Shown here one piece after another: positions 10,164 through 64,000 of a stretch of DNA of 64,000 nucleotides (position 1 is the first letter of the stretch; every line of letters begins with the position of its first letter). Under the pieces are notes generated by a model that saw nothing but the letters and a program-made list of their open reading frames with translations, made no database searches and was not told the origin of the DNA. Location of the stretch: the NCBI GenBank assembly GCA_001770955.1, contig MESL01000007.1:191114-255113 (forward strand). Direction: 5' to 3'. The position numbers and the translations under genes were made by a program. This stretch comes from Burkholderiales bacterium RIFCSPLOWO2_12_FULL_65_40. Lineage in GTDB: Bacteria > Pseudomonadota > Gammaproteobacteria > Burkholderiales > Burkholderiaceae_C.

Positions 10164-10226
10164 TTGAAGCTTTTTTGGCTTGTAGCGCTTATGTATCAAG
10201 CGCTATAAGCTATCAAAAAAGGAGCG
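10164..10226 (+). repeat. family A dispersed repeat, full copy
   Basis: The best full-length copy: a T-run and ggctt, then tgtagcgctt, a spacer, aagcgct and agctatcaaaaaaggagc. The inner halves agcgctt/aagcgct form an inverted repeat. It fills the gap between two convergent genes (the barrel gene and trpS) and might act as a two-way terminator. Confidence 0.75.
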
Positions 10227-10232
10227 ATTTCG

Positions 10233-11540
10233 TCAGGCGGCAGCGGCTGCGGCATCGGCCAGCGCCTGCAGCGCGGCCTGCACGTCGGCGGCGGCCACGC
10301 CGTCCACCGGGGCCAGGTGCGCGGCCAGGGTTTGCAAGGCCTGCGGGTCCTTCTGCAGCTCGGCGATGGCCTGGCCGGCTTCCTTGGGCGCGTCGAAGCC
10401 CGTGCTCTGCAGCAGCAGGCGGCCGTCGGCGTCGACGAACTTGAAGTAGAACTTGCCGTCCTTCTCGCGGTACTGCTTGAAGCTTGGCAGCGCGGCCTTG
10501 GCCACCTTGGCGGCCTTCTGCGGGGCAGCGGCCTGCACCAGGCTGCGCAGGCCCACGGCCGAGCGCAGCTCGCGCATGAAGGGCGTGGCGATCTGGCGCG
10601 CGCGTTCGGCGCCCGCGAGCAGCGTGGCCTCGATGCGCGCGGGGTTGTTGATCAGGGCTTCGTACTGTTCGCGCATCGGCGCGACGACCTGGTCCACGCG
10701 CTCGAACAGCACCTGCTTGGCGTCGCCCCAGGCGATGCCTTCCGCGTAGGCCTTGCGCAGGGCGGCGGTCTCGGCCTCGGTGGCGAAAGCCTGGTAGATC
10801 TGGAACAGGGCCGAGCCTTCGGTGTCCTTGGGTTCGCCCGGCGCGCGCGAGTCGGTCAGGATGCCGCCGATGAGCTTCTTGAGTTGCTCCCGGCTGGAGA
10901 ACAGCGGAATGGTGTTGTCGTAGCTCTTGCTCATCTTGCGGCCGTCCAGGCCGGGCAGGGTGGCCACGTTGTCGTCGATCACCGCCTCGGGCAGCACGAA
11001 GTGCTCGCCGTAGAGGTGGTTGAAGCTCGCGCCCATGTCGCGCGCCATCTCGATGTGCTGCACCTGGTCGCGCCCCACGGGCACCTTGTGCGCCTTGAAC
11101 ATCAGGATGTCGGCACCCATGAGCACGGGGTACATGAACAGGCCTGCGGTCACGCCGTCGTCCTGTTCGCGGGCTGCGGCGGCGTTCTTGTCCTGCGCGG
11201 CCTTGTAGGCGTGGGCGCGGTTGAGCAGGCCCTTGCCGGTCACGCAGGTCAGCAGCCAGGTCAGTTCGGGAATCTCGGGAATGTCCGATTGGCGGTAGAA
11301 GGTCACCTTCTCCGGGTCGAGCCCGGCGGCCAGCCAGCTCGCGGCGATCTCCAGCGTGGAGCGCTGGATGCGCACCGGGTCTTCGCACTTGATGAGTGCG
11401 TGGTAGTCGGCCAGAAAGTAAAAGCTCTGCACGCCGGGGCGCAGGCTGGCCTGCACCGAGGGGCGGATGGAGCCGACGAAGTTGCCGAGGTGGGGCGTGC
11501 CCGTGGTGGTGATGCCGGTGAGAAAGCGCGTGGTGCTCAT
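10233..11540 (-). CDS. trpS: tryptophanyl-tRNA synthetase with C-terminal extra domain
   Basis: Charges tRNA-Trp with tryptophan. The class I signature is visible as TGTPHLGNF near the N-terminus and GRKMSKSYDN near residue 200. At 435 residues it is about 95 longer than typical bacterial TrpS. The extra part contains FKQYREKDGKFYFKFVDADG, which resembles the small YegP/DUF1508 domain, followed by an alanine-rich tail (ADAAAAAA). It is the last gene of a leftward group after an M50-type protease, with a 123-base gap carrying part of a family B repeat. The ATG at 11540 starts directly at the conserved TTRFLTGITTTG region, so the start is secure. Confidence 0.95.
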   Translation of the reverse strand: MSTTRFLTGITTTGTPHLGNFVGSIRPSVQASLRPGVQSFYFLADYHALIKCEDPVRIQRSTLEIAASWLAAGLDPEKVTFYRQSDIPEIPELTWLLTCVTGKGLLNRAHAYKAAQDKNAAAAREQDDGVTAGLFMYPVLMGADILMFKAHKVPVGRDQVQHIEMARDMGASFNHLYGEHFVLPEAVIDDNVATLPGLDGRKMSKSYDNTIPLFSSREQLKKLIGGILTDSRAPGEPKDTEGSALFQIYQAFATEAETAALRKAYAEGIAWGDAKQVLFERVDQVVAPMREQYEALINNPARIEATLLAGAERARQIATPFMRELRSAVGLRSLVQAAAPQKAAKVAKAALPSFKQYREKDGKFYFKFVDADGRLLLQSTGFDAPKEAGQAIAELQKDPQALQTLAAHLAPVDGVAAADVQAALQALADAAAAAA

Positions 11541-11616
11541 GGGAACGAAATCAGCAAGAAAAGAAGAGAAAAGGCAAACGGGCCTTGCACGGGGTCGTGT
11601 ACTGGACGGGGTCCAG

Positions 11617-11661
11617 GAAACCGGCGCGGCCCAGGCCAGAGCCGAAGGCGACTCAGGGGGG
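11617..11661 (+). repeat. family B GC-rich repeat, partial copy
   Basis: Shares ccggcgcggcccaggccag with the copy at 27595 and ends in the same caggggggct block close to the stop codon of the leftward gene that ends at 11664. Confidence 0.5.
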
Positions 11662-11663
11662 CT

Positions 11664-12332: not shown

Positions 12333-12379
12333 CGGGGGATTGTCTCAGACGCGCCGCCGTCAGCGCCGCGGCGGGGTGA

Positions 12380-13015: not shown

Positions 13016-13025
13016 GGCGCGTGCG

Positions 13026-13889: not shown

Positions 13890-14017
13890 CGGCCCATTCT
13901 ACGGGTTTGTACTTGTGCCTGCAGGCTCCTCGGCGGTGTGCCGCAGGCGTAGGCTATCGGGTCTGCGGATGCGGGCATCGGGGCCTGTCCGCGCAATTTC
14001 AATAGAGGGAAAAGGCC

Positions 14018-15811: not shown

Positions 15812-15832
15812 TCCGTTTGGAAAACTTGTATT

Positions 15833-15849
15833 GCTATTGAAAACATAGC
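15833..15849. repeat. family A repeat, distal half only
   Basis: The near-palindrome gctattgaaaacatagc matches the distal half of the family A repeat. It lies just downstream of the chemoreceptor gene. Confidence 0.45.
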
Positions 15850-16000
15850 TTGATGCCGCCGACGGAAGGGCTTCATCGGCATTTTTGATGGCGAACTATT
15901 GAATGCCCCCCATGGGCCGACGGGGGTGGCATGCGGAGCCTGCAAGCAGGCCGGGCGGGGCTCTTCTACAATCTGCGCCCCGTCCACCTTCCGACCCACC

Positions 16001-16609: not shown

Positions 16610-16668
16610 GCAGTTGCCGGTGCGGATGCATCGGTCCCCCCGGGGCCGGGCTGCACCCGCGGCGCCTG

Positions 16669-16766: not shown

Positions 16767-18479
16767 CTACTTCAACTGCGCGCCCTCCACCAGAAACTGC
16801 ACCTTGCGCTCGCCCTTCCACTCGTTCACATCGAGGCGGAAGGCCAGCAGCACGCGCCCAGGCAACGGGTCGGTGTGGCCGAACCAGATGCCGTCCACCG
16901 GCTCGCCCTGGTGGCGCAGTTTGAGCGAGAGGTGGCGCTCGCCCACCAGGCGCTGGCTCAAAACTTCCACCTCCTCGCTGAAGGTGGGCGGCGCAAAACC
17001 CTGTCCCCAGACCTCGCGGTGCAGCGTGTCCACCAGGTCGGTTCGGCGGTATTCGGGGGCCAGTGGCCCGTCGGTCTCCAACCGGCGCGTGAGCGTGGCG
17101 GCGTCCAGCCACTCGCGCGCCACCTGGGCCAGCGCCTGCTCGAACACCTCGAACTGGTCTTCGGGCACGGTGCAGCCCGCCGCCATGGCATGGCCGCCAA
17201 AGCGCAGCAGCACACCGGGGTGGCGCTTGGCCACCAGGTCGAGCGCGTCGCGCAGGTGAAAACCGGGGATGGAGCGACCCGAGCCCTTCAATTCATGCTC
17301 CTTGCCCGGCGCGCCGCTGGCGGCGAAGACGAAGGTGGGGCGGTGCAGCCGGTCCTTGATGCGTGATGCCACGATGCCCACCACGCCTTCGTGGAAGTCG
17401 GGGTCGAACACGCTGATAGCGGGTGGCGGCTCGGTGCCTTCCTCAAACAGGTTCTCGGCCAGCAGCTGCGCCTGCTCGCGCATGCCGCCCTCGATCTCGC
17501 GGCGCTCGCGGTTGATGGCGTCGAGCTGCTGCGCCAGGTGATCGGCGCGGGCTGCGTCGTCGGTCAGCAGGCATTCGATGCCCAGCGTCATGTCGGCCAG
17601 GCGCCCGGCGGCGTTGATGCGCGGGCCCAGCGCGAAGCCGAAGTCGAAGGTGGTGGCCATGGGCGGCTGGCGCCCGGCCACGCGCAGCAGCGCCGCGATG
17701 CCGGGCTGCATCTGGCCCGCGCGGATGCGCTTGAGGCCCTGCGCCACCAGGCGGCGGTTGTTGGTGTCCAGCCTCACCACGTCGGCCACGGTGCCCAGGG
17801 CCACGAGGGGCAGCAGCGGGTCGAGCTTGGGTTGGCTGGCCACGTCGAACACCCCGCGCGCGCGCAACTCCGAGCGCAGCGCCAGGAGCACATAGAACAT
17901 CACGCCCACGCCGGCGATGGACTTGCTCTCGAACGTGCAGCCCGGCTGGTTGGGGTTGACGATGGCGTCGGCCTGCGGCAGCTCGCTGCCCGGCAGGTGG
18001 TGGTCGGTGACCAGCACCGCCAGGCCCAGCGCCTTGGCCTGGGCCACGCCCTCGCAGCTGGCGATGCCGTTGTCCACGGTGATGAGCAGGTCGGCGCCGC
18101 GCTCCTTCACGCGCCGGGCGATCGGCGGGGTCAGGCCGTAGCCGTCGACCACGCGGTCGGGCACGAGGTAGTCGACCTGCTGCGCGCCCAGCAGGCGCAG
18201 GCCGCGCACGGCCACGGCGCAGGCGGTGGCGCCGTCGCAGTCGTAGTCGGCCACGATGCACAGGCGCAGGTTCTGGGCCATGGCGTCGGCCAGCAGGCGC
18301 GCGGCCTCCTGGATGCCCTTGAGCCCACTGGGCGGCAGCAGTCGCGCCAGGCCGTCGTCCAGCTCGTCCTTGGCCTGCACGCCGCGGGCCGCGTACAGGC
18401 GCGCCAGCAGCGGGTGGATGCCGGCCTGTTCCAGCGCCCAGGCGGCCCGGGGTGGGATGTCTCTAGCTATTATTTTCAT
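16767..18479 (-). CDS. recJ: single-stranded-DNA exonuclease RecJ
   Basis: A 570-residue 5'-3' single-strand DNA exonuclease for recombination and mismatch repair. DHH-phosphoesterase motifs are visible: CIVADYDCDGATA (about residue 76), LLITVDNGIAS and LVTDHHLPG (about 155), and GSGRSIPGFHL plus RFGGHAMAAGCT in the DHHA1 part. Length matches bacterial RecJ. The ATG at 18477-18479 lies inside a family A repeat half (gctattattttcatagc). It overlaps the stop codon of the rpfE-like gene by ATGA, so the two are translationally coupled. Longer frames upstream would run into the rpfE-like gene and are rejected. Confidence 0.95.
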   Translation of the reverse strand: MKIIARDIPPRAAWALEQAGIHPLLARLYAARGVQAKDELDDGLARLLPPSGLKGIQEAARLLADAMAQNLRLCIVADYDCDGATACAVAVRGLRLLGAQQVDYLVPDRVVDGYGLTPPIARRVKERGADLLITVDNGIASCEGVAQAKALGLAVLVTDHHLPGSELPQADAIVNPNQPGCTFESKSIAGVGVMFYVLLALRSELRARGVFDVASQPKLDPLLPLVALGTVADVVRLDTNNRRLVAQGLKRIRAGQMQPGIAALLRVAGRQPPMATTFDFGFALGPRINAAGRLADMTLGIECLLTDDAARADHLAQQLDAINRERREIEGGMREQAQLLAENLFEEGTEPPPAISVFDPDFHEGVVGIVASRIKDRLHRPTFVFAASGAPGKEHELKGSGRSIPGFHLRDALDLVAKRHPGVLLRFGGHAMAAGCTVPEDQFEVFEQALAQVAREWLDAATLTRRLETDGPLAPEYRRTDLVDTLHREVWGQGFAPPTFSEEVEVLSQRLVGERHLSLKLRHQGEPVDGIWFGHTDPLPGRVLLAFRLDVNEWKGERKVQFLVEGAQLK

Positions 18480-18482
18480 AGC
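18466..18482. repeat. family A repeat half carrying the recJ start codon
   Basis: The near-palindrome gctattattttcatagc contains, on the minus strand, the recJ ATG and the overlapping TGA of the gene before it. Confidence 0.5.
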
Positions 18483-19432
18483 TGTTCGCGCACGTCCGCA
18501 AAGCGCTGAGGTCGGAAAATGCTTGAAATTCTCTGGCCGAGCGAACGCGGTGCCGTGTGCCAGGTGAGCGCGCCGCGCTCGCCGCACAGCGTGAGCCGCG
18601 CTGTGGCGCCGCGCGCTACATGCGCATCGAGCCGCGCCAGCGCACCGGCGTCGATCGCCTGCCAGGCGGCGCTCCAGGCGGCCCAGTCTTCGCGCAGCGC
18701 GGCGCCCTGCAGGCCGTCTTCGACCACCGGCGGCGGGGCCGGGGGCTGCGGCGCCTGGGGCAGTCGGCCCGCGCCATGCACCCAGAAGGCGTTGACAGGC
18801 GGCAGGCGCCGGGCCTCGCGTGCGTCGTTGAAGGGGTGGGTGTAGAGCAGCATCTGCATCTCGCTGTGCAGGCGGCGCAGCGGGTGTGACTTTTGCTCGC
18901 CCGGCAGCCAGTGCGAGACGTCGCGGTGCAGCACGCGTTCGGGCGAGGCGGTGACCAGGTCGGCCAGCAACTCGCCGTGCGCCAGCCAGCGCGTCGGCTG
19001 GTCGTACTGCAGCGTGATGCCGTCACCCTCGAACCACGGTGCCATGAGGGCGAGCAGGGCGCGCGAGTCGTCTTCGGTCAGCTGGAGCTGGGCCGGGTCG
19101 GCCAAGGTGACATGGTCGGTGCGCACCTCCCAGTGGCAGGGCGTGACGAAGGCCCAGGCGTCCTGGGCAGCCTCGTCGTGGCGGCCCTGCTGGTGCAGGT
19201 GGTGCGCGGCCCACGGAATGCAGCCGGGGGCGCTGGGCAGGCCCAGCGCGCGCGCCAGCGCGCGCTCGTGCGGGGCGCTGAAGGCGTCGTCGTCCCCCAG
19301 GTCGCTCTCGTGCAGTGTCAGGCGTGCGAGCAGCCGGTCCAGGTGGGGCAGGGCCAGGCCCGTCAGGGCCTGCTGGCTGGCCTCGGAGGCGCCGGCGGCG
19401 TAGGGGATGAGCAAATGGAGGGTGTCCGACAT
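18476..19432 (-). CDS. RpfE-like conserved protein encoded with recJ
   Basis: A 318-residue soluble protein without recognisable catalytic motifs. Its N-terminus (TLHLLIPYAAGASE) and its position directly before recJ match proteins annotated as 'regulatory protein, RpfE type' in beta- and gammaproteobacteria; rpfE also neighbours recJ in Xanthomonas. The function is not established. Conserved-looking blocks include PCHWEVRTDHVTLADP and LHSEMQMLLYTHPFN. The ATG at 19432 (MSDTLHLLIPYA) is preferred over 19456. It overlaps recJ by 4 bases. Divergent from the OLD-family gene, with only 66 bases between them. Confidence 0.65.
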   Translation of the reverse strand: MSDTLHLLIPYAAGASEASQQALTGLALPHLDRLLARLTLHESDLGDDDAFSAPHERALARALGLPSAPGCIPWAAHHLHQQGRHDEAAQDAWAFVTPCHWEVRTDHVTLADPAQLQLTEDDSRALLALMAPWFEGDGITLQYDQPTRWLAHGELLADLVTASPERVLHRDVSHWLPGEQKSHPLRRLHSEMQMLLYTHPFNDAREARRLPPVNAFWVHGAGRLPQAPQPPAPPPVVEDGLQGAALREDWAAWSAAWQAIDAGALARLDAHVARGATARLTLCGERGALTWHTAPRSLGQRISSIFRPQRFADVREQL

Positions 19433-19498
19433 GCCGGGTATTTTGCGGGATGCCACAATCGACAGCTAATCGCTTACTTCCCCCGGGGACAACCCTCC

Positions 19499-21307: not shown

Positions 21308-21395
21308 CGCTACTACAAAAAAACAGCCCTCGGACCCGGCGTTAAAAGCAGCGGCCTTTGACACGATTCGTCGTTCTCCTAAACCGCAACAACAC

Positions 21396-22652
21396 ATGCA
21401 AATCCCTTACGAACTGGCCCTGGGCTGGCGCTACACCCGCGCGGGCCGCGCCACGCGGCGCAACGGTTTCATCTCGTTCATCTCGGGCGTGTCCATGCTG
21501 GGCATCGCGCTCGGGGTGGCGGCGCTCATCATCGTGCTCAGCGTGATGAACGGCTTTCAGAAAGAGGTGCGCGACCGCATGCTCAGCGTGGTCTCGCACA
21601 TCGAGATTTTTGCCCCGGCCGGCGCGGCCATGCCCGACGTGGCGCGCACGCTGCAGGAGGCACGCCAGCACCCGCAGGTGGTGGGCGCGGCGCCGTTCGT
21701 CGCGGCGCAGGCGCTGCTGGCGCGCGGCGAGGACATGAAGGGCGCGCTGGTGCGCGGCATCGACCCGGCGCGCGAGCCCGAGGTCACCGATCTGGTGGCC
21801 GGCAGCCAGGGCGAGGCGCTGGCGCAGCTCGTGCCGGGCGAGTTCCGCGTGGTGCTGGGCGGAGAGCTGGCGCGCATGCTGGGCGTGCGCGCGGGCGACG
21901 TGGTCACGCTGATCGCGCCCAGCGGCCAGGTCACGCCGGCCGGTGTGGTGCCGCGCATCAAGCAGATGCAGGTGGCTGGCACCTTTGATTCGGGCCACTA
22001 CGAATACGACTCCACCCTGGTGCTGCTGCACCATGAGGACGCGCAGCGCATCTTCCGCCTTGAAGGGCCCACCGGCATCCGCCTCAAGCTGCGCGACCTG
22101 CACCAGGCGCGCACCGTGGCGCAGGATCTGGCCCAGTCCCTGAGTGGCGACCTGCTGATCCGCGACTGGACGCAGCAGAACCGCACCTGGTTTGCCGCCG
22201 TGCAGCTCGAAAAACGCATGATGTTCATCATCCTCACGCTGATCGTGGCCGTGGCGGCGTTCAACCTGGTGTCCACGTTGGTGATGACGGTGCAGGACAA
22301 GCGCGCCGACATCGCCATCCTGCGCACCCTGGGCGCGAGCCCGCGCAGCATCATGGGTATCTTCGTGGTGCAGGGCGCGATGGTCGGCGTCATCGGCACG
22401 CTGGCCGGGCTGCTGTTGGGCCTGGGCATTGCGTTCAACATCGACGTGATCGTGCCCGCCATCGAGCGGCTGTTGAGCGCGAGCTTTCTGCCCAAAGACA
22501 TCTACCTCATCAGCCGCATGCCCAGCGACCCGCAGCCTGCCGACATCGTGCCCGTGGGCGTGATCTCGCTGGTGCTGTCCTTCGTGGCCACGCTCTACCC
22601 GAGCTGGCGCGCCAGCCGCGTCAACCCTGCCGAGGCCTTGCGCTATGAATAA
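21396..22652 (+). CDS. lolC: lipoprotein-releasing ABC permease LolC/E
   Basis: A 418-residue inner-membrane permease that, with LolD, extracts lipoproteins from the inner membrane for transfer to LolA. An N-terminal helix (about 24-46), a large periplasmic domain and three C-terminal helices (about 265-395) fit the LolC/LolE family, as do [18 protein letters not shown] and [19 protein letters not shown]-type blocks. The start at 21396 ([13 protein letters not shown]) is the family start; a longer frame reaches 21267 but would overlap the OLD gene. It overlaps lolD by 8 bases. Only one permease gene is seen, so a LolC-type homodimer (LolF-like) or a second gene elsewhere is possible. Confidence 0.92.
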
Positions 22653-23385
22653 TATAGCTAGTGACGCTTATCCAGCAAGCGCTGGAGGCCAAAATGGCTT
22701 CAAGAACCAAGTCGTGCTGCAGGCCCGGGGCCTGACCAAGCGCTTCACCGAGGGGCGCCTGGACGTGACGGTGCTGCAGGGTGTCGACCTGGATGTGCAC
22801 GCGGGCGAGACGCTGGCCATCGTCGGCGCCTCGGGTTCGGGCAAGAGCACGCTCTTGCACCTGCTGGGCGCGCTCGATGCACCCACGTCGGGCAGCGTGC
22901 ACCTGCATGGGCGGAATCTGGCGCAGATGTCTGCAGCGCAGCAGGGCGACTTGCGCAACCAGTACCTGGGCTTTGTCTACCAGTTTCACCACCTGCTGCC
23001 CGAGTTCAGCGCGCTCGACAACGTGGCCATGCCGCTGCGCATCCGCCGCCTGCCTTACGAAGAATGCACGCGCCAGGCCGCGCAAATGCTGGCCCACGTG
23101 GGCCTGGCGGGCCGCGTGCAGCACCGCCCGGCCGAGCTGTCGGGCGGCGAGCGCCAGCGCGTGGCCATTGCGCGTGCCCTGGTCACCCGGCCGGCCTGCG
23201 TGCTGGCCGACGAGCCCACCGGCAACCTTGACCGCACCACGGCCGAGGGTGTGTTCCAGCACATGCTGCAACTGGCACGCGAGCAGGGGACGGCGTTTGT
23301 GATGGTGACGCATGACGAGACCTTGGCGGCGCGGTGCGACCGGGTGCTCAGGCTGGTGGCGGGGCGGCTGGATTCGGCTGCGTAG
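22645..23385 (+). CDS. lolD: lipoprotein-releasing ABC ATPase LolD
   Basis: A 246-residue ABC ATPase powering lipoprotein release. Walker A is GASGSGKST (about 66-74), the Q-loop is [12 protein letters not shown], the signature is [15 protein letters not shown] and Walker B is [12 protein letters not shown]. Met-1 overlaps the end of lolC, so the two are coupled. The first 20 or so residues ([19 protein letters not shown]) are encoded by a family A repeat in inverted orientation and are not part of the usual LolD core, which begins near [12 protein letters not shown]. An internal start without the repeat is possible, but no better ribosome site was seen. Confidence 0.93.
22653..22704 (-). repeat. 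family A repeat inside the lolD 5' end
   Basis: On the minus strand it reads ttttggcctccagcgcttg, then a spacer, ataagcg and ctagctat: the family order. It encodes the extra N-terminal residues of LolD. Confidence 0.7.
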
Positions 23386-23495: not shown

Positions 23496-24323
23496 ATGCC
23501 CCACTCTTGGATCGACACCCACTGCCACCTGGACGCCCCCGAGTTCGCTCCCGACGTGGACGCAGTGCGCGCCCATGCCCGCGCAGCCGGCGTGCAGCAC
23601 CTCGTCATTCCAGCAGTGCAAGTGGCCCATGCCGACGCCGTGCGTGAACTGGCCCACCGCCACGGCGACAGCTACGCCCTGGGCATCCATCCCCTCTACA
23701 CCCCGCAGGCGGCGGACGACGACGTGGAGCGCCTGGCGCAACTACTGGAGCAGCACAGCAACGACCCGCACCTCGTCGCCATCGGCGAGATCGGCCTGGA
23801 TTTCTTCGTGCCCGGGCTGGACGCCGAGCGCCAGACGCGCTTTTACCGTGCGCAGTTGCAGCTGGCCCGGCGCTTCAACCTGCCCGTCATCCTGCATGTG
23901 CGCCGCTCGGCCGACGCGCTGCTCAAGGGCCTGCGCGAGGTACCGGTGCGGGGCGGCATCGCACATGCGTTCAATGGCAGCCTGCAGCAGGCGCGCGCCT
24001 TCATCGCGCTGGGCTTCAAGCTCGGCTTTGGCGGCGCGCTGACTTATGAGCGCGCGCTGCAGCTGCGTCGCCTGGCCACCGAGCTGCCCCTCGAGGCCCT
24101 GGTGCTGGAGACCGATGCGCCCGACATGCCGCCACACTGGATCTACCGCACCGCTGCCGAGCGTGCCGCCGGCCAGCCGCAAGGACGCAACGCGCCGGCC
24201 GAGCTGCCGCGCATCGCACAGGTTCTGGCCGGCCTGCTCGGCACGCCGCTGGAGGCGCTGGCGCAGCACACCCGCGCCAATGCATTGCACGCGCTGCCGC
24301 GTCTGCAAGGCCGTGCAGGATAA
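23496..24323 (+). CDS. tatD: TatD-family metal-dependent hydrolase
   Basis: A 275-residue TIM-barrel metallohydrolase; relatives are DNA exonucleases or D-aminoacyl-tRNA deacylase-like proteins. Metal ligands are visible: WIDTHCHLD (HxH), AIGEIGLDF (Glu), LPVILHVRR, GIAHAFNGS and LETDAPDMPP (Asp). The ATG at 23496 (MPHSWIDTHCH) places the metal motif directly at the N-terminus, as in the family; an earlier in-frame start at 23427 lacks support. It is followed by a family A repeat and then the glycosylase gene. Confidence 0.9.
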   Translation: MPHSWIDTHCHLDAPEFAPDVDAVRAHARAAGVQHLVIPAVQVAHADAVRELAHRHGDSYALGIHPLYTPQAADDDVERLAQLLEQHSNDPHLVAIGEIGLDFFVPGLDAERQTRFYRAQLQLARRFNLPVILHVRRSADALLKGLREVPVRGGIAHAFNGSLQQARAFIALGFKLGFGGALTYERALQLRRLATELPLEALVLETDAPDMPPHWIYRTAAERAAGQPQGRNAPAELPRIAQVLAGLLGTPLEALAQHTRANALHALPRLQGRAG

Positions 24324-24329
24324 TGGGCG

Positions 24330-24383
24330 AAAATGGCCTCTGGCGCAGTACCCTATTGCGCTAAAAGCTATTGATTTGATAGT
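24330..24383 (+). repeat. family A repeat, full copy
   Basis: Reads aaaatggcctctggcgcagt, a spacer, ttgcgctaaa and agctattgatttgatag. It fills the gap between tatD and the glycosylase gene, just upstream of the latter's start codon. Confidence 0.7.
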
Positions 24384-24401
24384 AAATTTTCTTCCCATTC
24401 C

Positions 24402-33396: not shown

Positions 33397-33410
33397 ATTT
33401 TGTACGAAAA

Positions 33411-34331
33411 GTGCCTTCAGCCCAATCACAGCAAGCGCTAGCAGCTAGCAAATCAAGAGCAACCGGAGTCGCCCTTGCGCTGCTGGGCTCCATCGCCTTC
33501 AGCGCCAAGGCCATCATCGTCAAGCTGGCCTACCGCCATGGCGTGGACGCGGTCACGCTCATCATGTACCGCATGCTGTTCGCGCTGCCTTTCTTTGCCG
33601 CCATGGCCTGGTGGGCGAGCCGGGGGCAGGCCCCGCTCACGCGCAAGGACGGGTGGGGTGTGCTGGGCCTGGGTGTCTCGGGCTACTACCTGGCGAGCTT
33701 TCTCGATTTCGCCGGGCTGGCCTACATCAGCGCCAGCCTGGAGCGGCTCATCCTCTACCTCAACCCCACGCTGGTGCTGATGCTGGGCTGGGCGGTGTAT
33801 GGCCGTGGCATCCGTTGGGGCCAGGCACTGGGCATGGCCGTGAGCTACTGCGGCGTGGTGCTGGTGTTCGGCCACGAGGTGCATCTGCAAGGCACGAACG
33901 TGGCCTGGGGCACGGCGCTGGTGTTCGGCAGTGCGGTGAGCTATGCCATCTACCTTGTCTACAGCGGCGAGCTGGTGCAGCGCCTGGGCTCGCTGCGCCT
34001 GGTGGGCCTGGCCACCAGCGTGGCCTGCCTGCTGTGCCTGCTGCAGTTTGCGCTGTTGCGCCCGCTGTCGGCGGCCCTGGTCGCCCCCGAGGTGGTGTGG
34101 CTGTCGGTGCTCAATGCCCTGCTGTGCACCGCCGCGCCGGTGCTCATGGTGATGATGGCCATCGAGCGCATCGGCGCCGGTGCGGCCGCGCAGATCGGCA
34201 TGGTGGGGCCGATGTCCACCATCCTCATGGGCGTGGTGATCCTGGGCGAGCCGTTCACGCCCTGGGTGGCGGCCGGCACGGCGCTGGTGATCGCCGGGAT
34301 CTTTGTCTTTACCCGTCCGGTGCGGCGCTAG
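33411..34331 (+). CDS. EamA/DMT-family transporter
   Basis: A 306-residue membrane protein with about ten hydrophobic helices and two EamA repeats, as in drug/metabolite transporters. Blocks such as LDFAGLAYISASLERLILYL and AAQIGMVGPMSTILMGV are characteristic. The start is GTG at 33411. The first 17 or so residues (PSAQSQQALAASKSRATG) are partly encoded by a family A repeat (33429-33460) and are not hydrophobic; a later start cannot be excluded. It lies 14 bases after the gamma-glutamyltransferase gene. The substrate is unknown. Confidence 0.85.
   Translation: MPSAQSQQALAASKSRATGVALALLGSIAFSAKAIIVKLAYRHGVDAVTLIMYRMLFALPFFAAMAWWASRGQAPLTRKDGWGVLGLGVSGYYLASFLDFAGLAYISASLERLILYLNPTLVLMLGWAVYGRGIRWGQALGMAVSYCGVVLVFGHEVHLQGTNVAWGTALVFGSAVSYAIYLVYSGELVQRLGSLRLVGLATSVACLLCLLQFALLRPLSAALVAPEVVWLSVLNALLCTAAPVLMVMMAIERIGAGAAAQIGMVGPMSTILMGVVILGEPFTPWVAAGTALVIAGIFVFTRPVRR
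33429..33460 (+). repeat. family A repeat, distal part, in the EamA gene
   Basis: Reads cagcaagcgctagcagctag then caaatcaagagc, matching the distal half of the full copies. It codes for the hydrophilic N-terminus of the transporter. Confidence 0.6.
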
Positions 34332-35892: not shown

Positions 35893-35952
35893 GGAGTTCT
35901 CCACTTATGATAGTTTGGTGCTGACTGTAGCAGCGTGTTACCGGAGATTGTT

Positions 35953-42595: not shown

Positions 42596-43413
42596 GCGCG
42601 CTCCCGCCCGATTGGCTCCTGCGTGCCCGCGCCGATGCGCGCCAGCCGCCGCGCCGGGCGCGGTTGCCGTTTTTCGCCGATGGTTACCCCGTCGGCTCGG
42701 TCGAGCCCGGTGTTTTGGATGAAATAGTGCTCCAGAGCTTACTGGATGTGCGCTATAAGCTATCAATACAGGAGCGTTTTGCGGCGCCCGTGTGGTGCCT
42801 GGAGGCCCAGCACGGCGAGCTGACAGCAGCGTTCGATGCGCTTGCGCGGGCCTTGCGCGCGCTCGGCCACTGCGGCCCGTGGCGCAACGAGCAGTTGGCC
42901 GTGTGCACCGCCCAGGGGAAGTGCCTGGGCACCATCGAGCGCGGTCTGGTGCGTGTGCTGGGCATCGCCACGCAGGCCGTGCACCTGGTGGGCCTGGCGC
43001 CCGATGGCCGCATGTGGGTGCAGCAGCGGGCCTTTGACAAGCCCAACAACCCGGGCCAGTGGGACACGCTGATGGGCGGCATGGTGTCCGCCGCCGACAC
43101 CCTGCATGAGGCGCTGGAGCGTGAAACCTGGGAAGAGGCCGGCCTGCGGCTGTCGGCCCTGCAGAACGTGGTGCATGGAGGCCATATCGATTTCGAGCGA
43201 CCCAGCCGCGAAGGCGGTGGAACGGGGTACATGCGCGAACGCATCGACTGGTTCCGTGCCGTGGTGCCTCCCGGCAGGGTGCCGTGCAACCAGGATGGCG
43301 AGGTGGCGCGCTTCGAGCTTCTGCCCCCGGAAACATTGCGCCAGTGGGTGGAGCAGGGGCTGTTCACGCAGGAAGCCACGCTGGTGCTGGCCGCCAGCTG
43401 GGGACTCTGCTAA
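42592..43413 (+). CDS. Nudix hydrolase with DUF4743-like N-terminus
   Basis: A 273-residue protein whose C-terminal half carries a complete Nudix box (GGMVSAADTLHEALERETWE followed by EAG), for hydrolysis of a nucleoside diphosphate derivative. The N-terminal half resembles DUF4743, the module next to Nudix domains in thiamine-pyrophosphokinase-like fusions. The start is GTG at 42592, overlapping the oxidoreductase stop by 4 bases. Residues about 46-61 (EIVLQSLLDVRYKLSIQ) come from an in-frame family A repeat. The 3' end overlaps hpnE tail to tail by 4 bases. The substrate is unknown. Confidence 0.85.
   Translation: MSALPPDWLLRARADARQPPRRARLPFFADGYPVGSVEPGVLDEIVLQSLLDVRYKLSIQERFAAPVWCLEAQHGELTAAFDALARALRALGHCGPWRNEQLAVCTAQGKCLGTIERGLVRVLGIATQAVHLVGLAPDGRMWVQQRAFDKPNNPGQWDTLMGGMVSAADTLHEALERETWEEAGLRLSALQNVVHGGHIDFERPSREGGGTGYMRERIDWFRAVVPPGRVPCNQDGEVARFELLPPETLRQWVEQGLFTQEATLVLAASWGLC
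42728..42775 (+). repeat. family A repeat inside the Nudix gene
   Basis: Reads tgctccagagcttactggat then gtgcgctataagc and tatcaatacaggagcg, in the family order. It is read through in frame without a stop. Confidence 0.7.
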
Positions 43414-50813: not shown

Positions 50814-53648
50814 TCAGGCGCTCACCCGGTTTTCACCGGCGCCGTACAGGTTGCTCGTGCAGCGGCTGCACAGCGTGGGGTGCTGTGTGTCGTGGCCCAC
50901 ATCTGCCCGGTAGTGCCAGCAGCGCTCGCATTTGGCATCAGAACTGGCTTTGACGCTTATCTGAAGTGCGTCACCAGCTATTAATTCAATAGCGGAAGTG
51001 ATGAAAACGAACTTCAAATCGTCACCCAGACTTGCCAGCAGCGCATGGTCTTCGGGCGCTGCGGTCAGCCTCACACCGGCCTGCAGCGACGAGCCCACCT
51101 GGCCGGCGGCGCGCAGGGCCTCGATCTCCTTGTTCACCAGGTCGCGCAGGGCGCGCAGGCGCTCCCACTTGGTCTGCAGGCCCTCGTCGCCCGTGGGAAT
51201 GGTGCCGTAGGTTTCGAGGAAGATGGATTCGGAACTGCCGAACACCTTCCAGGCCTCCTCGGCCGTGAACGAGAGGAAGGGCGCCATCCAGCGCAGCATG
51301 GCGTGCGTGATCTGGTGCAGCGCGGTCTGCGCGCTGCGGCGTGCCAGGCTCTTGGGGGCCGTGGTGTAGAGGCGGTCCTTGAGCACGTCGAGGTAAAAGC
51401 CCCCCAGGTCTTCCGAGCAGTAGAGCTGCAGCTTGGCGACCACGGGGTGGAACTCGTACACCTTGTAGTGCGCCAGCACCTCCTGCTGGAACTGCGCCGC
51501 GCGCGTGAGCGCGTAGCGGTCGATCTCCAGCATCTGCTCGAACGGCACGGCGTCCTTCGCGGGGTCGAAGTCGCTCACGTTGGCCAGCAGGAAGCGCAGC
51601 GTGTTGCGGATGCGGCGGTAGGCGTCCACCACGCGCGCGAGGATCTTGTCGTCGATGGCCAGGTCGCCCGAGTAGTCGGTGGCGGCGCACCACAGGCGGA
51701 TGATCTCGGCGCCCATCTTGTTGCTCACCTCCTGCGGCGAGACGGTGTTGCCCACCGACTTGCTCATCTTCTTGCCCTGGCCGTCCACCGTGAAGCCGTG
51801 CGTGAGCAGGCCGCGGTAGGGCGCGCGGTCGAAGATGGCGCTGGCCAGCAGCAGCGAGCTGTGGAACCAGCCGCGGTGCTGGTCATGGCCTTCGAGGTAG
51901 AGGTCGGCCTCGGGGCCGCTGTCGTGGTGCATGCCGGCGTGCGTGCCGCGCATCACGTGCCAGAAAGTGGAGCCGGAGTCGAACCACACTTCCAGGATGT
52001 CGGTGCTCTTGGTGTAGTGCTCGGCGTCCTGCGCGCCCAGGATCTCTTCGGGCGTCACGCGGCTCCAGGCCTCGATGCCGCCTTGCTCGACGATGGAAGC
52101 CGCCTGGTCCATGATTTCCATGGTGCGCGGGTGCAGCTCGCCCGAATCCTTGTGCAGGAAGAAGGGCAAGGGCACGCCCCAGCTGCGCTGGCGCGAGATG
52201 CACCAGTCGGGCCGGCCGGCGATCATGTCGCGCAGGCGGGCCTTGCCGTTCTCGGGGTAGAAGTGCGTCTGCTCGATGGCAGCCAGGGCCGTCTGGCGCA
52301 GCGTGCCGGGGGCCTTGTCCTGGGTGAACACGCCCTCGCCCTCGTCCATGCGCACGAACCACTGGGCCGCGGCGCGGTAGATCACGGGCGTCTTGTGGCG
52401 CCAGCAGTGCGGGTAGCTGTGCGTGATGGTGGTGGTGCCCATCAGGCGGCCGGCGGCCTGCAGCGTCTCGATGATGACGGGGCAGGCTTTCCAGATGTTC
52501 ATGCCGCCGAACAGGGCCAGGGTGTCGTCGTAGCGGCCGTTGCCCAGCACGGGGTTGAGGATGTCGTCGTACTTCACGCCGTGCGCCACGCAGGAGTTGA
52601 AGTCTTCCACGCCGTAGGCGGGCGAGGAGTGCACGATACCCGTGCCGTCGCTGGCCGTGGCGTAGTCGGCCAGGTACACGGGCGAGAGGCGGCGGTAGCC
52701 CTCGTGCACATCGTGCAGCGGGTGCTCGAACTCGATGCCAGCGAGCTTTTCGCCCTGGGCCACGGCCAGCACCTGGCCCTGCAGGCCCCAGCGCGCCATG
52801 CAGTCATCGACCAGTGTGGCGGCCATGACGAACAGGCCGCGCTCGGTATCCACCAGCGCGTAGGGCAGCTCGGGGTTGAGGTTGAGCGCCTGGTTGGCGG
52901 GGATGGTCCAGGCGGTCGTGGTCCAGATGACGGCGAAGGCGTCCTTCTCCAGCGCGGCCAGGCCGAAGGCGGCGGCGAGCTTGGACGGGTCATGGGCCTT
53001 GAAGGCGACGTCTAGCGTCTGGCTCTTCTTGTCCTGGTACTCGATCTCGAACTCGGCCAGCGACGAGCCGCAGTCGAAGCACCAGTACACGGGCTTGAGG
53101 CCGCGGTACACGTAGCCGCGCTCCATCACGCGCTTCAAGGCGCGCAGCTCGCCCGCCTCGCTGGCGTAGTTCATGGTCTTGTAGGGGTTGTCCCATTCGC
53201 CGAGCACGCCCAGGCGCTTGAAGTCCTCCATCTGCTGGGCGATCTGCTCGGTGGCAAAGGCGCGGCCCCGGGCCTGCATCTCGTCGCGCGGCAGGTTGCG
53301 GCCGTGGAGCTTTTCGATGGCGTTCTCGATCGGCAGGCCGTGGCAGTCCCAGCCGGGCACGTAGAGTGCGTCGAAGCCTTCGAGCTGGCGTGCCTTGGTG
53401 ATCATGTCCTTGAGGATCTTGTTCACCGCGTGGCCGATGTGGATCTGGCCGTTGGCGTAGGGCGGGCCGTCGTGCAGGATGAACTTGGGCGCGCCGCAGC
53501 GCGCGTCGCGCAGCTTCTTGTAGATGCCTTTCTCGTCCCATTCCTTGACCCAGCCGGGCTCGCGCTTGGGCAGGTCTCCGCGCATGGGGAAGGGCGTGTC
53601 GGGCAGATTCAGGGTGCTGCGGTAGTCGGGGGTCTTGGTGTCGGACAT
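50814..53648 (-). CDS. ileS: isoleucyl-tRNA synthetase
   Basis: A 944-residue class I synthetase charging tRNA-Ile with editing of valine. The HIGH motif is in [15 protein letters not shown] (about 60-74), KMSKS in [12 protein letters not shown] (about 625) and the C-terminal zinc motif is CERCWHY with a second CSRC. Length is normal. A family A repeat (50945-50994) supplies about 17 residues ([20 protein letters not shown] region) just before the zinc motif, which is unusual for an essential enzyme. ribF is upstream and lspA directly downstream. Confidence 0.96.
50945..50994 (+). repeat. family A repeat inside ileS
   Basis: On the plus strand it reads ctttgacgcttatctgaagt then gcgtcaccagctattaattcaatagc. 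It is read in frame by ileS on the minus strand. Confidence 0.65.
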
Positions 53649-54809: not shown

Positions 54810-54983
54810 GGAGCGTTATCTTTTTAATAGCGCCTTGCGCAGGGCCACCAAGCGCAGGACATCGATTGGACTTGAAATGAGCGTATATTGTGACGCAGCC
54901 GCTCCTGGCCGCACTGCGCGCAGGTCTGGCACCCGACATCTGCATCCATTCCTTGCTGGCTTTGTTGTTCGAGGAGGCGCGTT

Positions 54984-55650: not shown

Positions 55651-55682
55651 AAAAGGCCTGCAGGCTGTTCTGCAGGCCTTTT
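55651..55682. terminator. bidirectional terminator
   Basis: A perfect 13-base stem (aaaaggcctgcag at 55651-55663 with ctgcaggcctttt at 55670-55682) has a 6-base loop; A and T runs on both sides allow it to work on both strands between convergent genes. Confidence 0.85.
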
Positions 55683-55700
55683 GCCAGGGTTTGCTGCGTG

Positions 55701-57306: not shown

Positions 57307-58422
57307 TCAGGCAAACACCCCCGCCGTCTCCTGCATGCGCTTGGACACCTCGCCCAGGTGGTGCAGCGTGTCGCCGAAGGTCATTTCGAGCTGCGTGAGC
57401 TTCTTGAAATAGTGGCTGCCGATGTATTCATCGGTCACGCCGATGCCGCCGTGCAGCTGCACCGATTGCTGGCCCACGAAGCGCATCGACTGGCCCAGCT
57501 GCACCTTGGCACGGGCCGTGGCGGCGCGGCGCTCGGGGGCGGGGGCGCCGAGCTTGAGGCTGGCGTAGTAGCTCATCGATCGGGCCAGTTCCAGCTGCAT
57601 CTTCATGTCGGCCACGCGGTGGCGCAGGGCCTGGAAGGTGGCGATGGCCACGCCGAACTGCTTGCGCTGGTTCATGTAGTCCACGGTCAGGGCCACGGTC
57701 TGGTCCATCACGCCCACGGCCTCGGCGCAGGTGGCGGCGATGCCGGTGTCCACGGCCAGTTCCAGCGCGCCCAATCCGTCCTGGGTGAGCAGTGTGGCGG
57801 GGGCGTTGGACAGCTGCAGCTCGGCGGCGCGGCTGCCGTCCTGCGTGACGTAGCCGCGCGTGGTGACGCCGCTGGCAGCGCGCTCGACCAGGAATAGGGC
57901 GAGCTTGCCGTCCAGCTGCGCAGGCATGAGGAAGGCGTCAGCCTGGTCGCCGGCGGGGACTATGCTTTTGGTAGCTGTCAGCGCATAACCAGTGGGTGCT
58001 GCAGTCGCTTTTGCTTCGCAAACGTCGAGGCGGTAGCGGGCCTTGCGTTCCTGGTGGGCCAGCACCACCAAGGCTTCACCGCTGGCGATGCGCGGCAGCC
58101 AGGCCGACTGCACGGCGGCCGGGGCATAGCTTGAGAGCACGCTGCTGGTGATGAAGGCGTGGGCCAGGGGTTCGAGCACCATGCCGCGGCCCAGTTCTTC
58201 CATCACCACCATGGCGTCGACGGCGCCCTGGCCCATGCCGTCGTGTTGTTCAGGCACTGTGAGGGCCGTGAGGCCCAGCTCGGCCAGTTCGCCGTAGGCG
58301 GCGCGGTCGAAACCGCCCGCGGCCACGATGGCGCGGCGACGCTCGAACGAATAGCCCTTGTCCACCCACTTGCGCACGGCGTCACGCAGTTGCTGCTGGT
58401 CGTCAGAAAAATCGAAATCCAT
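57307..58422 (-). CDS. acyl-CoA dehydrogenase, small-subunit type (PimD-like)
   Basis: A 371-residue FAD enzyme oxidising acyl-CoA to enoyl-CoA. Family blocks: TVPEQHDGMGQGAVD, MNQRKQFGVAIATFQALRHR and QLHGGIGVTDEYIGSHYFKK. With the upstream gene it forms a pair like pimeloyl-CoA dehydrogenase small and large subunits. Residues about 137-154 (VCEAKATAAPTGYALTATKS region) are encoded by a family A repeat, read in frame. It starts 12 bases after the first dehydrogenase gene, so they are cotranscribed. The substrate chain is not known. Confidence 0.88.
   Translation of the reverse strand: MDFDFSDDQQQLRDAVRKWVDKGYSFERRRAIVAAGGFDRAAYGELAELGLTALTVPEQHDGMGQGAVDAMVVMEELGRGMVLEPLAHAFITSSVLSSYAPAAVQSAWLPRIASGEALVVLAHQERKARYRLDVCEAKATAAPTGYALTATKSIVPAGDQADAFLMPAQLDGKLALFLVERAASGVTTRGYVTQDGSRAAELQLSNAPATLLTQDGLGALELAVDTGIAATCAEAVGVMDQTVALTVDYMNQRKQFGVAIATFQALRHRVADMKMQLELARSMSYYASLKLGAPAPERRAATARAKVQLGQSMRFVGQQSVQLHGGIGVTDEYIGSHYFKKLTQLEMTFGDTLHHLGEVSKRMQETAGVFA
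57961..58012 (-). repeat. family A repeat inside an acyl-CoA dehydrogenase gene
   Basis: On the minus strand it reads gcaaaagcgactgcagcacc then ggttatgcgctgacagctaccaaaagcata. The match to the full copies is weaker in the first half and good in the second. Confidence 0.5.
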
Positions 58423-58434
58423 GTTCTTGTCTCC

Positions 58435-59616: not shown

Positions 59617-59695
59617 ACGGTGTGTCTCCTGAGAAGATGTATTTGTAGCACGGCCGTTCGTTTTTCGCCTGTCCAAATGGAGACAATGGCCCCGT

Positions 59696-60373: not shown

Positions 60374-60393
60374 GGCGGGGATAATTGCAACAA

Positions 60394-60969
60394 ATGAAGA
60401 ACATCGTGATTTTGATCTCCGGCGGCGGCTCCAACATGGCGGCCATCGTGAAAGCCGCGCAGCAGGAGCATTGGGAGCGGCGCCTGGGCGCGCGCGTGGC
60501 TGCGGTGGTGAGCAACAAGATGGATGCTGGCGGGCTGCGGTTCGCACGCGAGCAGGGCATTGCCACCGAGGTGCTGGACCACAAGCAGTTCCCCAGCCGT
60601 GAAGCGTTCGACACCGAACTGGCCGCCGTGATCGACCGCCACAGTCCCGCGCTGGTGGTGCTGGCGGGTTTCATGCGCATCCTCACGCCCGGCTTCGTGG
60701 CGCACTATGCGGGGCGGCTGGTGAACATTCACCCGTCGTTGCTGCCCGCCTTTACGGGGTTGCACACGCACCAGCGTGCCATCGATGCCGGTTGCCGGTT
60801 CGCCGGCTGCACGGTGCACCAGGTCACGGCGGAGCTGGATGTCGGCCCCATCGTCGAGCAGGCCGTGGTGCCGGTGCTGGCGGGCGACACGGCCGAGATG
60901 CTGGCGGCACGCGTGCTGACGCAGGAGCATCTGATCTATCCGCGGGCGGTGGCTCGGTTGCTACAATAA
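60394..60969 (+). CDS. purN: phosphoribosylglycinamide formyltransferase
   Basis: A 191-residue enzyme of purine synthesis, transferring a formyl group from formyl-tetrahydrofolate to GAR. The phosphate-binding [15 protein letters not shown], the catalytic [13 protein letters not shown] and the [11 protein letters not shown] block are all present. Length is normal. The ATG at 60394 ([12 protein letters not shown]) is chosen. Its 3' end faces the DUF1653 gene, with a family A repeat filling the 47-base gap. Confidence 0.95.
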
Positions 60970-61014
60970 ATATAGCTATCAGCGCCCGTTGGTATTGCGC
61001 TAAAGGCTTTTTTC
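60966..61014 (-). repeat. family A repeat between purN and the DUF1653 gene
   Basis: On the minus strand it reads aaaaaagcctttagcgcaat then accaacgggcgctgatagctat. Like the copy at 10164 it lies between two convergent genes. Confidence 0.7.
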
Positions 61015-61016
61015 AT

Positions 61017-61256
61017 TCATTTTTCTGGCAATCGCTCGAAGCGGGGGCGTGGCACGCCATCGACCAGCACCATTTCCTCGAACATGGCGGTGGGCCGCAC
61101 CCACAGTCCACGTTCACCGTACAGGGCGCGGTAGACGGTCATGGATTCCCGTGTTTCGCTGTGGCGGGCGGTGTCCATCACCTCGTAGAGAAAGCCTTTG
61201 TAGTGCCGGTAAAGACCCGGCGGCGTAGGGATGATCGGGGGCAGATCGTCGTTCAT
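61017..61256 (-). CDS. small DUF1653 protein
   Basis: A 79-residue protein of the DUF1653 family, of unknown function. The blocks PGLYRHYKGFLYEVMDTARH and TVYRALYGERGLWVRPTAMF are the family signature. Length is normal for this family. The ATG at 61256 (MNDDLPPIIPTPPGLYRH) is chosen; the frame stays open much further upstream, but that part is antisense to the protease gene. Divergent from that protease gene, with about 40 bases between. Confidence 0.85.
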   Translation of the reverse strand: MNDDLPPIIPTPPGLYRHYKGFLYEVMDTARHSETRESMTVYRALYGERGLWVRPTAMFEEMVLVDGVPRPRFERLPEK

Positions 61257-61295
61257 AGGTAGGATGGCGGTCACAAGAACATCCGGGGGACATCC

Positions 61296-63149: not shown

Positions 63150-63198
63150 TTCCGCCCCGGCCGGTGCCGGGAGGAGGCAAGGGTGGGACAATCGCCCC

Positions 63199-64000
63199 AT
63201 GCATCCCAACGCCCTTCTGGAAGCCTGCTCCGAACTCGTCAGGCTCACCCTCACCTTTGAACACCCGGCCGACGCCGTGGTGTCCCGTTTTTTCCGCGAC
63301 CACCGGGGTCTGGGCCAGCGCGAGCGCGCGGCCCTGGCCGAGACCGTCTACACCGTGCTGCGCAAGAAGCTGCTGTTCGACCACATGACGCCCTCGGGCT
63401 CCGGGCCGAAGGAGCGGCGCCTGGCCATCCTCGGCTTTGCCCATTGGCAGGACGAAGAAGCCCGGCGCAGCAACCCCAAGGCCGTGCACGGCCCGCGCGA
63501 CTTCCTGCAGGCGGCCCTGAACGATCGCGAGAAACAATGGCTGGAGCAATGCGACGCCGTGCAGGAGGGCGACCTGCTCGAACGCCACCGCCACAACCTG
63601 CCCGAGTGGCTGGCACAGCCGCTCAAAGAGCAGCTCGGTAGCGACTTCTGGCCCCTGGTGCAGGCCCTTTCCAGCAGCGCACCGCTGGATCTGCGCGTCA
63701 ACGTTTTAAAGGAAAAAAGGCCTGAAGTGCAGAAGGAGCTTGCGCAAGCAGCTATCAAAACAGAAGTGACGCCGTATTCCCCCTGGGGCCTGCGTGCGGT
63801 GGGCAAGCCCGCGCTGGCCAAGCTGCCAGCCTTCGTGCGCGGCGCCATCGAGGTGCAGGATGAAGGCTCGCAGCTGCTGGCGCTGCTGCTCGACGCCAAG
63901 CGCGGCGAGATGGTGGTGGACTTCTGCGCCGGCGCGGGCGGCAAGACCCTGGCCATCGGTGCGGCCATGCGCAGCACCGGGCGGCTGTACGCCTTCGACG
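63199..64000 (+). CDS. rsmB: RsmB-type 16S rRNA m5C methyltransferase, 5' part
   Basis: The gene runs off the right edge; 267 codons are visible. The N-terminal NusB-like helical domain (about 1-150; LLEACSELVRLTLTFEHPAD) is followed by the SAM-binding start VVDFCAGAGGKTLAIGAAM, typical of RsmB/RsmF enzymes that methylate cytosine in ribosomal RNA. The start ATG at 63199 fits. Residues about 173-189 (EKRPEVQKELAQAAIKTEV) come from an in-frame family A repeat. RsmB is favoured over RsmF because of the N-terminal domain. The catalytic cysteines lie beyond the window. Confidence 0.85.
   Translation, partial: MHPNALLEACSELVRLTLTFEHPADAVVSRFFRDHRGLGQRERAALAETVYTVLRKKLLFDHMTPSGSGPKERRLAILGFAHWQDEEARRSNPKAVHGPRDFLQAALNDREKQWLEQCDAVQEGDLLERHRHNLPEWLAQPLKEQLGSDFWPLVQALSSSAPLDLRVNVLKEKRPEVQKELAQAAIKTEVTPYSPWGLRAVGKPALAKLPAFVRGAIEVQDEGSQLLALLLDAKRGEMVVDFCAGAGGKTLAIGAAMRSTGRLYAFD
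63714..63766 (+). repeat. family A repeat inside the rsmB gene
   Basis: Reads aaaaaaggcctgaagtgcag then a spacer, cttgcgcaagc and agctatcaaaacagaag. The match to the consensus order is good and the repeat is read in frame. Confidence 0.7.

Follow-up and report, generated by a model that had tools for sequence, protein, structure and literature searches.

A dispersed 68-bp motif in contig MESL01000007.1

A 64,000-nt stretch of contig MESL01000007.1 (hereafter the window), from Burkholderiales bacterium RIFCSPLOWO2_12_FULL_65_40, contains a dispersed repeat for which a preliminary description had listed ten good copies, two half copies and one weak copy of 45 to 60 bases each. The repeat is one real, ungapped motif of about 68 bp. 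All 13 places match this single motif at 33 to 75 bits, and both orientations occur as originally described, with 6 copies on the plus strand and 7 on the minus strand. The unit is longer than had been thought, since position counts place it at about 68 bp with ends that fade into background. Scores were obtained with an ungapped weight matrix, built first from 30 seeds and then from 65 copies of the source genome, the window's own included. The copies in the window are as follows.

10162..10229, plus strand: motif copy, 75 bits; occupies the gap between the convergent stops of the upstream gene (6769-10161) and trpS (10233-11540)
15829..15896, minus strand: motif copy, 33 bits (25 held out); one of the half copies of the preliminary description
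18462..18529, minus strand: motif copy, 60 bits; covers the end of gene 18476-19432 together with the start of recJ
22638..22705, minus strand: motif copy, 64 bits; where the FtsX-like permease gene meets the ABC-transporter ATPase gene
24320..24387, plus strand: motif copy, 70 bits; immediately 3' of the TatD DNase gene
33397..33464, plus strand: motif copy, 64 bits; immediately 3' of the gamma-glutamyltransferase gene
36090..36157, minus strand: motif copy, 51 bits; within the short-chain dehydrogenase gene (35935-36783, plus)
42712..42779, plus strand: motif copy, 69 bits; within the NUDIX-domain gene (42592-43413, plus)
50930..50997, plus strand: motif copy, 58 bits; antisense in ileS (50814-53648, minus), in the interval between anticodon-binding domain and zinc finger
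54811..54878, minus strand: motif-like copy, 38 bits; in the leader directly upstream of gene 53775-54809
57955..58022, minus strand: motif copy, 44 bits; within the acyl-CoA dehydrogenase gene (57307-58422, minus), with graded scores there across genera
60956..61023, minus strand: motif copy, 64 bits; between convergent genes
63704..63771, plus strand: motif copy, 54 bits; close to the window end

Detection and abundance

All 13 places were also recovered, at 25 to 74 bits, by a held-out matrix trained on 51 copies, none of them from C7 or C31, and the next-best place in the window scored 11 bits. In 454 kb of the source genome (C7:1-255113 and C31:1-199100), 88 copies scored at least 20 bits, or 87 with the held-out matrix, whereas no site reached this score in a Markov-3 control or in the reversed sequence. 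At 0 bits or above there were 16 sites in the reversed sequence and none in the Markov-3 control, and when the window was simulated five times with a Markov-1 model, the highest matrix score was -7. The profile and genome scan that had been proposed as a check therefore place the motif far above the level of shuffled sequence, and the family is, as claimed, real, ordered and frequent beyond chance. The density of one copy per 5.2 kb extrapolates from the 454 kb to ~730 copies per genome. A strict core pattern matched 66 times in the 3.77-Mb assembly and 0 times when reversed; this pattern undercounts, as genome G035 has 0 strict matches yet scores 51 bits at the acyl-CoA dehydrogenase site.

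A sequence-only covariance model gave 11 matches in the window at E<1e-6 and left 54815 (E 0.16) and 15833 (E 0.7, opposite strand) at chance level, like 16933 (E 0.35) and 19531 (E 0.7). The half and weak copies are upheld by the matrix (33 bits at 15829, 60 at 18462 and 38 at 54811), but those at 15833 and 54815 are not upheld by the covariance model. An Rfam scan of the window at gathering scores matched no family, and searches of open-licence papers brought up no report of such a motif in Comamonadaceae among the titles listed.

Anatomy of the motif

The consensus is roughly TTTGAnTGAAAATGGCCTCTAGCGCTTnnnnnnnAAGCGCTnnnAGCTATnnAwwnnATAGC, over ~68 bp, and its parts stand in the order given in the preliminary description. 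The conserved block extends from about -38 to +30 relative to the second GCGCT and includes 37 strong positions. On inspection, the consensus has a pseudo-symmetric core (RGCY, 3 nt, AGCGCTT, 7 nt, AAGCGCT, 3 nt, AGCT) flanked by A/T tracts, the left of which switches as a block between AAAA and TTTT. Mean identity between copies of the source genome was 50%, and spacing was rigid. The spacer between GCGCT and AGCTAT measured 3 nt in 66 of 66 source-genome matches of the strict pattern, which permits 2 to 4 nt, and the two exceptions (2 nt and 4 nt) were found among the listed matches of other genomes. The distance between left and right halves was exact in 60 of the 64 copies in which both halves scored well.

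The two arms did not covary: across 22 pairs and 88 copies, the paired fraction was 0.52 compared with 0.50 after shuffling (largest z 2.8). RNA folding of the copies, which had been suggested earlier, revealed no real consensus hairpin, as RNAalifold found nothing in 30 copies beyond a 3-pair stem of -1.0 kcal/mol. Thus, a hairpin RNA or cruciform was ruled out. The rigid spacing of the halves together with the absence of arm covariation suggests that they are read on double-stranded DNA and not selected as a hairpin.

These features could suit a dimeric chromosome-organising or nucleoid-associated protein that reads the pseudo-palindrome and A/T tracts at sites kept by selection one by one, and this is the main rival to the interpretation developed below. 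Consistent with such a protein, the motif is orientation-free and two-fold pseudo-symmetric, and its A/T tract flips as a block. However, the ~58 bits of the matrix, an in-sample value, are far above what is needed to recognise some 700 sites in 3.8 Mb, and per-site selection would hardly maintain a motif that exceeds the need for recognition in this way.

Placement relative to genes and replicons

Genes were called with a codon model, and not all copies were assigned correctly: 36090, at least, was counted as lying outside genes because its gene was called with too late a start. With this assignment, the 88 copies were divided among called genes (19), tandem gaps (41), convergent gaps (18), divergent gaps (7) and edges (3), with a density of 0.049 per kb inside called genes compared with 1.07 per kb outside. 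Many copies take up the whole gap between two genes. Convergent gaps were enriched, with copies in 18 of 57 compared with 48 of 329 other gaps (P 0.004). Within called genes, 10 copies were sense and 9 antisense, and 8 of the 9 antisense copies used the same reading frame (P 0.001). A single called gene of another locus (L146 11712-17573; 1954 aa), whose peptide we take to be UvrA-like, contains three copies, all antisense.

The preference for convergent gaps could point to a transcriptional element, either a bidirectional terminator or a promoter or leader element, and a second role as terminators is known for uptake sequences, according to passages of PMC3630211. A version of the motif also occupies the leader of gene 53775-54809, where the site scores at least 10 bits in 37 of the 73 loci that reach far enough, including loci of Variovorax, which has almost no other copy. 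A transcriptional role as the explanation of the family is nonetheless highly improbable, given that 19 of the 88 copies lie in called genes on either strand, that 7 lie between divergent genes, and that neither hairpin covariation nor an Rfam match in the window at gathering score was found. In the window, the motif-like sequence at 54811-54878 sits between an AATATAC box and the ATG of the downstream gene, presumably ribF; it could be either an ancient copy or a leader under a constraint of its own.

Distances between copies were irregular, with coefficients of variation of 0.88 and 0.74 that each fell within the random range. Regularly spaced architecture sites were thereby ruled out, and the same irregularity counts against a nucleoid-associated protein. 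On the complete chromosome of G072, a member of another genus, the best 150 hits of 2446 candidates covered the chromosome evenly (chi-square 4.8, 9 degrees of freedom) and were balanced between strands (78 plus, 72 minus), and a replichore-oriented motif was rejected on this ground. In the source genome, the strand split was skewed on C7 (14 plus, 33 minus) and was 23 to 18 on C31.

Plasmids were nearly devoid of the motif. Eight plasmid stretches of Polaromonas, Rhodoferax and Verminephrobacter contained 2 copies in 381 kb. The expected number was 60, based on the 40 copies present in 254 kb of chromosomal DNA from 13 loci with the name Polaromonas or Rhodoferax. This contrast may be inflated, because each of the chromosomal loci lies in the core region around ileS and comes from a strain other than the plasmid ones. 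The only two plasmid copies (L336 36062 and 37417, on pPNAP01 of Polaromonas; 72 and 63 bits) flank one ATPase gene of a BREX-2 defence cluster, and this bracketing suggests that the gene is of chromosomal origin. DNA specific to the source genome contained 2 copies compared with 6.4 expected (P 0.048); in an earlier, smaller set, 1 of 28 copies fell in the 18.5 of 144 kb that were specific. Even coverage and plasmid depletion would both be in keeping with a nucleoid-associated protein.

Copies within genes arise without insertion

Same-genus genomes were compared at sites of the source genome, and 78 of 105 comparisons were kept as clean, with flank alignments within 40 nt. Within genes, all 18 clean comparisons (9 sites) had a slot of exactly 68 bp, in which the motif was present in 11, weak in 2 and absent in 5, the last seven coming from two sites. 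Outside genes, the motif was present in 55 of 60 clean comparisons (26 sites) and absent in 5 (3 sites). Among the 78 comparisons no empty site was shorter by ~68 bp, target duplications not having been looked for systematically. Three intergenic or junction copies of the window illustrate the range. Motif and length at 18462 are conserved in all five same-genus relatives compared; the copy at 24320 scores 67 to 80 bits in all five despite divergence of nearby intergenic DNA; and at 22638 four of the five score 25 to 71 bits, while G131 has 255 bp without the motif instead.

Two window genes were followed across genera. The copy in ileS encodes the segment preceding KCERCWHY, and 71 of 80 fetched loci could be anchored around it. 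Sixty-five of these have 22 residues between the anchors, of which 21 score 11 to 60 bits and 44 score 0 to -51; the six loci with 21 to 44 residues all score below zero. For acyl-CoA dehydrogenase, the best 30 orthologs among 100 genomes were taken, and 22 were anchored and counted (8 were not). The best score fell at the identical place in 16 of the 22, with values of 51, 49, 44, 40, 39, 38, 32, 31, 21, 13, 6, -8, -22, -22, -38 and -39 bits; in the other 6 it fell elsewhere in the stretch, at -34 or less. Comparison of orthologous loci with and without the repeat, as proposed in the preliminary description, thus found segments of the same length either way in both genes. At c31:67362 and 119879, the motif is likewise partly built in one genome, the source genome, and relatives have little or none of it at identical length. 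In-frame insertion of the type known from Rickettsia was ruled out, as ileS, acyl-CoA dehydrogenase and the C31 sites show no change in length.

Codon usage bears the mark of the motif. The GC content of third codon positions was 0.43 in within-gene copies compared with 0.88 across the remainder of those genes, and was lower in 19 of 19; ATA codons made up 10 of 418 codons in the copies compared with 5 of 13,397 elsewhere in these genes. The preliminary description would have taken a match to protein segments conserved in all orthologs as evidence against the repeat, and some copies do lie on conserved protein segments. However, genomes without the motif encode these segments with other DNA, whereas the motif-bearing copies use A/T-ending rare codons.

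A short mobile repeat, as had been implied, is therefore not the source of the within-gene copies, since all 18 comparisons were of equal length. It is improbable more generally that the family is an old palindromic mobile repeat (a miniature inverted-repeat transposable element [MITE], a repetitive extragenic palindromic [REP] sequence or a Rickettsia-type element) dispersed by insertion and subsequently retained in some functional role. Such an origin would explain why copies often fill an entire intergenic gap and why scores are bimodal, with just 10 sites between 0 and 20 bits. It would also accommodate the five clean absences outside genes, all of which differ in length: four are longer, and at c31:53124 one relative lacks both the motif and ~85 bp. 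Some intergenic copies may thus have been inserted or deleted. Mobility is at odds with motif scores that are graded at one fixed position of conserved coding sequence, with the partly built sites on C31, with the lack of arm covariation and with the near absence of copies from the scanned plasmid stretches.

The motif is maintained against mutation

In 90 same-genus pairs, one third of the motif positions differed, and yet the mean scores were 55 bits in the source genome and 60 bits in the relative, the latter biased upward because only relatives scoring 20 bits or more were included. Random placement of as many changes would bring the score to about 0 bits. Outside genes, strong positions were 76% identical in same-genus pairs compared with 52% for weak positions. 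When changes were polarised with at least 3 genomes (26 sites), consensus was lost at 179 of 2247 opportunities, whereas 56 of 277 non-consensus positions had changed, 30 of them to consensus (P 2e-9). A smaller polarised set gave 32 of 618 compared with 10 of 64, with 6 of these to consensus. Maintenance as such would also be expected of sites for a nucleoid-associated protein.

Distribution across taxa

All named carriers of the motif are Comamonadaceae, and the named best ileS matches of the window are mostly from genera of this family. In family f1, represented by 120 genomes (one per genus), 32 had strict matches, with 3 control matches in all; eleven of the 32, including the source genome, had 13 to 99 matches each. 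Of 200 genomes sampled from the order, 195 fall outside f1, and these had 0 to 3 strict matches, the same as the control. In the samples covered, the motif keeps to a single family. Within genus g133 (53 genomes), strict matches ranged from 0 to 129, which would be odd for an architecture protein that the cell needs. Taken with the excess of information and the irregular spacing, this makes a nucleoid-associated protein an unlikely explanation.

At 20 bits or more, the ileS loci of Simplicispira metamorpha and Diaphorobacter nitroreducens contained seven copies each and that of Paenacidovorax caeni six; two Acidovorax loci had four and three, and two further ones had one each. No copy was found at 20 bits in the ileS locus of Diaphorobacter aerolatus or, even at 8 bits, in those of Hydrogenophaga, Limnohabitans and Ideonella. 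The Variovorax ileS loci had little besides one site upstream of the gene preceding ileS. Lineages also differ slightly in dialect, as loci grouped as Polaromonas or Rhodoferax favour AGCCC and others AGCGC; the groups were assembled by us from sites found with the source-genome matrix, and 'Rhodoferax' includes the betaproteobacterial loci L118 and L126, 'Polaromonas' the Burkholderiales locus L095.

An uptake-sequence-like motif is the best explanation

The best explanation of these findings, with a probability of about 0.58, is that the motif, spread chromosome-wide, is recognised on double-stranded DNA, resembles an uptake sequence of unusual length and persists through biased transformation. 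Under this proposal, free DNA that carries the motif would be bound better than other DNA by some part of the type IV pilus or competence machinery that reads sequence. Fragments with a motif nearer the optimum would then be taken up and recombined more often, and point mutations toward the motif would accumulate wherever a gene or spacer tolerates them. We infer two points: the motif is read by the uptake machinery, and it is biased uptake, not selection site by site, that maintains it. Abundance, rigid spacing, occurrence on both strands, growth inside genes, upkeep, avoidance of coding and plasmid DNA, and dialects all match uptake sequences, making an uptake-like function the most likely one. 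Known uptake sequences are neither conserved over as much as 68 bp nor as sparse, and the motif is therefore not classed with the DNA uptake sequences (DUS) or uptake signal sequences (USS) but is proposed only to work alike.

As described in passages of PMC7811141, the USS of Pasteurellaceae, with about two thousand copies in Haemophilus influenzae, have a core flanked by A/T-rich segments, evolve through point mutations and not as inserted elements, and are rarer in coding and newly acquired DNA; the Comamonadaceae motif resembles them in its mode of evolution within genes and in these depletions. It differs in having 68 bp in place of a 9-bp core with flanking A/T segments and in occurring about once per 5 kb, and by impression alone no sequence resemblance was noticed. 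The DUS of Neisseriaceae are likewise limited to a family, abundant, divided into lineage dialects, especially permitted in intergenic regions and associated with terminators (passages of PMC3630211). Unlike the motif, DUS have 10 to 12 bp and thousands of copies, and they often form inverted pairs at terminators, whereas the motif is a single pseudo-palindrome. REP sequences and bacterial interspersed mosaic elements (BIME), which go with RAYT transposases, are short, abundant, mostly intergenic imperfect palindromes; the motif shares these traits but also occurs within genes, has arms that do not covary and arises in genes without insertion. The palindromic elements of Rickettsia also occur in reading frames, as in-frame insertions, whereas the proteins compared here keep their length when they carry the motif.

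Several observations weigh against this interpretation. At 68 bp, the motif is far longer than the 9- to 12-bp cores of known uptake sequences, and one copy per 5 kb is sparser, known uptake sequences occurring about once per kb. The bimodal scores suit discrete elements no worse than gradual accumulation, and the five outside-gene absences all differ in length. Only two sites supply the within-gene cases without the motif, and of these seven comparisons one may involve a paralogue (c31:119879, where the stretch of G126 is syntenic to another contig). When at least 4 genomes were required for polarisation (11 sites), the excess of change at non-consensus positions lost significance (P 0.088): consensus was lost at 78 of 1111, whereas non-consensus bases had changed at 9 of 68, in 6 cases to consensus. 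The depletion in DNA specific to the source genome is only marginal. Further, a motif shared across genera cannot alone explain why A. temperans yielded zero transformants with A. facilis DNA, and competence genes do not track the motif, as detailed below.

Competence genes and a candidate reader

Sequence-selective natural transformation has been reported in related species: passages of PMC4212676 report that Acidovorax temperans, A. facilis and Verminephrobacter eiseniae are naturally transformable, that A. temperans is transformed only by DNA of its own species and that V. eiseniae requires type IV pili. These passages discuss uptake sequences and name no motif for these bacteria. ComEC, the sole competence gene searched, had its domain in 31 of 31 genomes, the source genome included (13 with and 18 without strict matches). 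The domain lay in one long open frame in all 18 genomes without strict matches, so that competence genes do not track the motif. Loss of ComEC as a general cause of motif loss was rejected, as a broken or short frame was found in 2 of the 13 motif-bearing genomes and in 0 of the 18 others. In one of the two, G088, ComEC has 573 aa; in the other, G003, the domain is split over three frames (C1:1836740-1837544), and this genome has 18 strict matches and an acyl-CoA dehydrogenase site without the motif.

Minor pilins are known or predicted readers of uptake sequences elsewhere (passages of PMC12616744). Numbers of GspH matches did not separate motif-rich from motif-poor genomes. However, an adjacent FimT/GspH-type minor-pilin pair was present in 10 of 19 motif-rich compared with 0 of 20 motif-poor genomes (P 0.00015, phylogeny ignored; the genomes were chosen by us and are not all from genus g133). 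The lead is weakened by motif-rich G072, which has one gene and not a pair at this place. The pair is thus a candidate motif reader, as a lead only. In the source genome, two adjacent GspH/FimT-type genes lie on C51 (L281 1501-1872 and 2082-2429) and adjoin what we take to be a PilV-like gene.

A bolder proposal, offered tentatively and at somewhat less than even odds, is that Comamonadaceae have a third, independently evolved uptake system with the longest such motif known, in which a dimeric or two-headed pilus receptor, with the FimT/GspH pair as candidate, would read the 68-bp site, and which would have been gained and lost within genera. As of 2020, two bacterial families had been described with strong uptake sequence preferences (passages of PMC7811141), and a third would mean that the process recurs. 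If the uptake interpretation is correct, motif-rich and motif-poor species of one genus would offer a test of accumulation by drive alone, and the motif would be a concrete candidate for the sequence selectivity of transformation in Acidovorax and Verminephrobacter. It would also account for a conspicuous repeat in many environmental genomes and caution against annotating it as mobile.

Other observations in the window

At 19461-21395, matches to most same-genus relatives break off although the surroundings are collinear, whereas G122 matches the greater part of this interval; it is a strain-variable stretch unrelated to the motif. Two 300-nt stretches, 15019-15318 and 46819-47118, lie in two genes, are 83% identical and are apparently paralogous.

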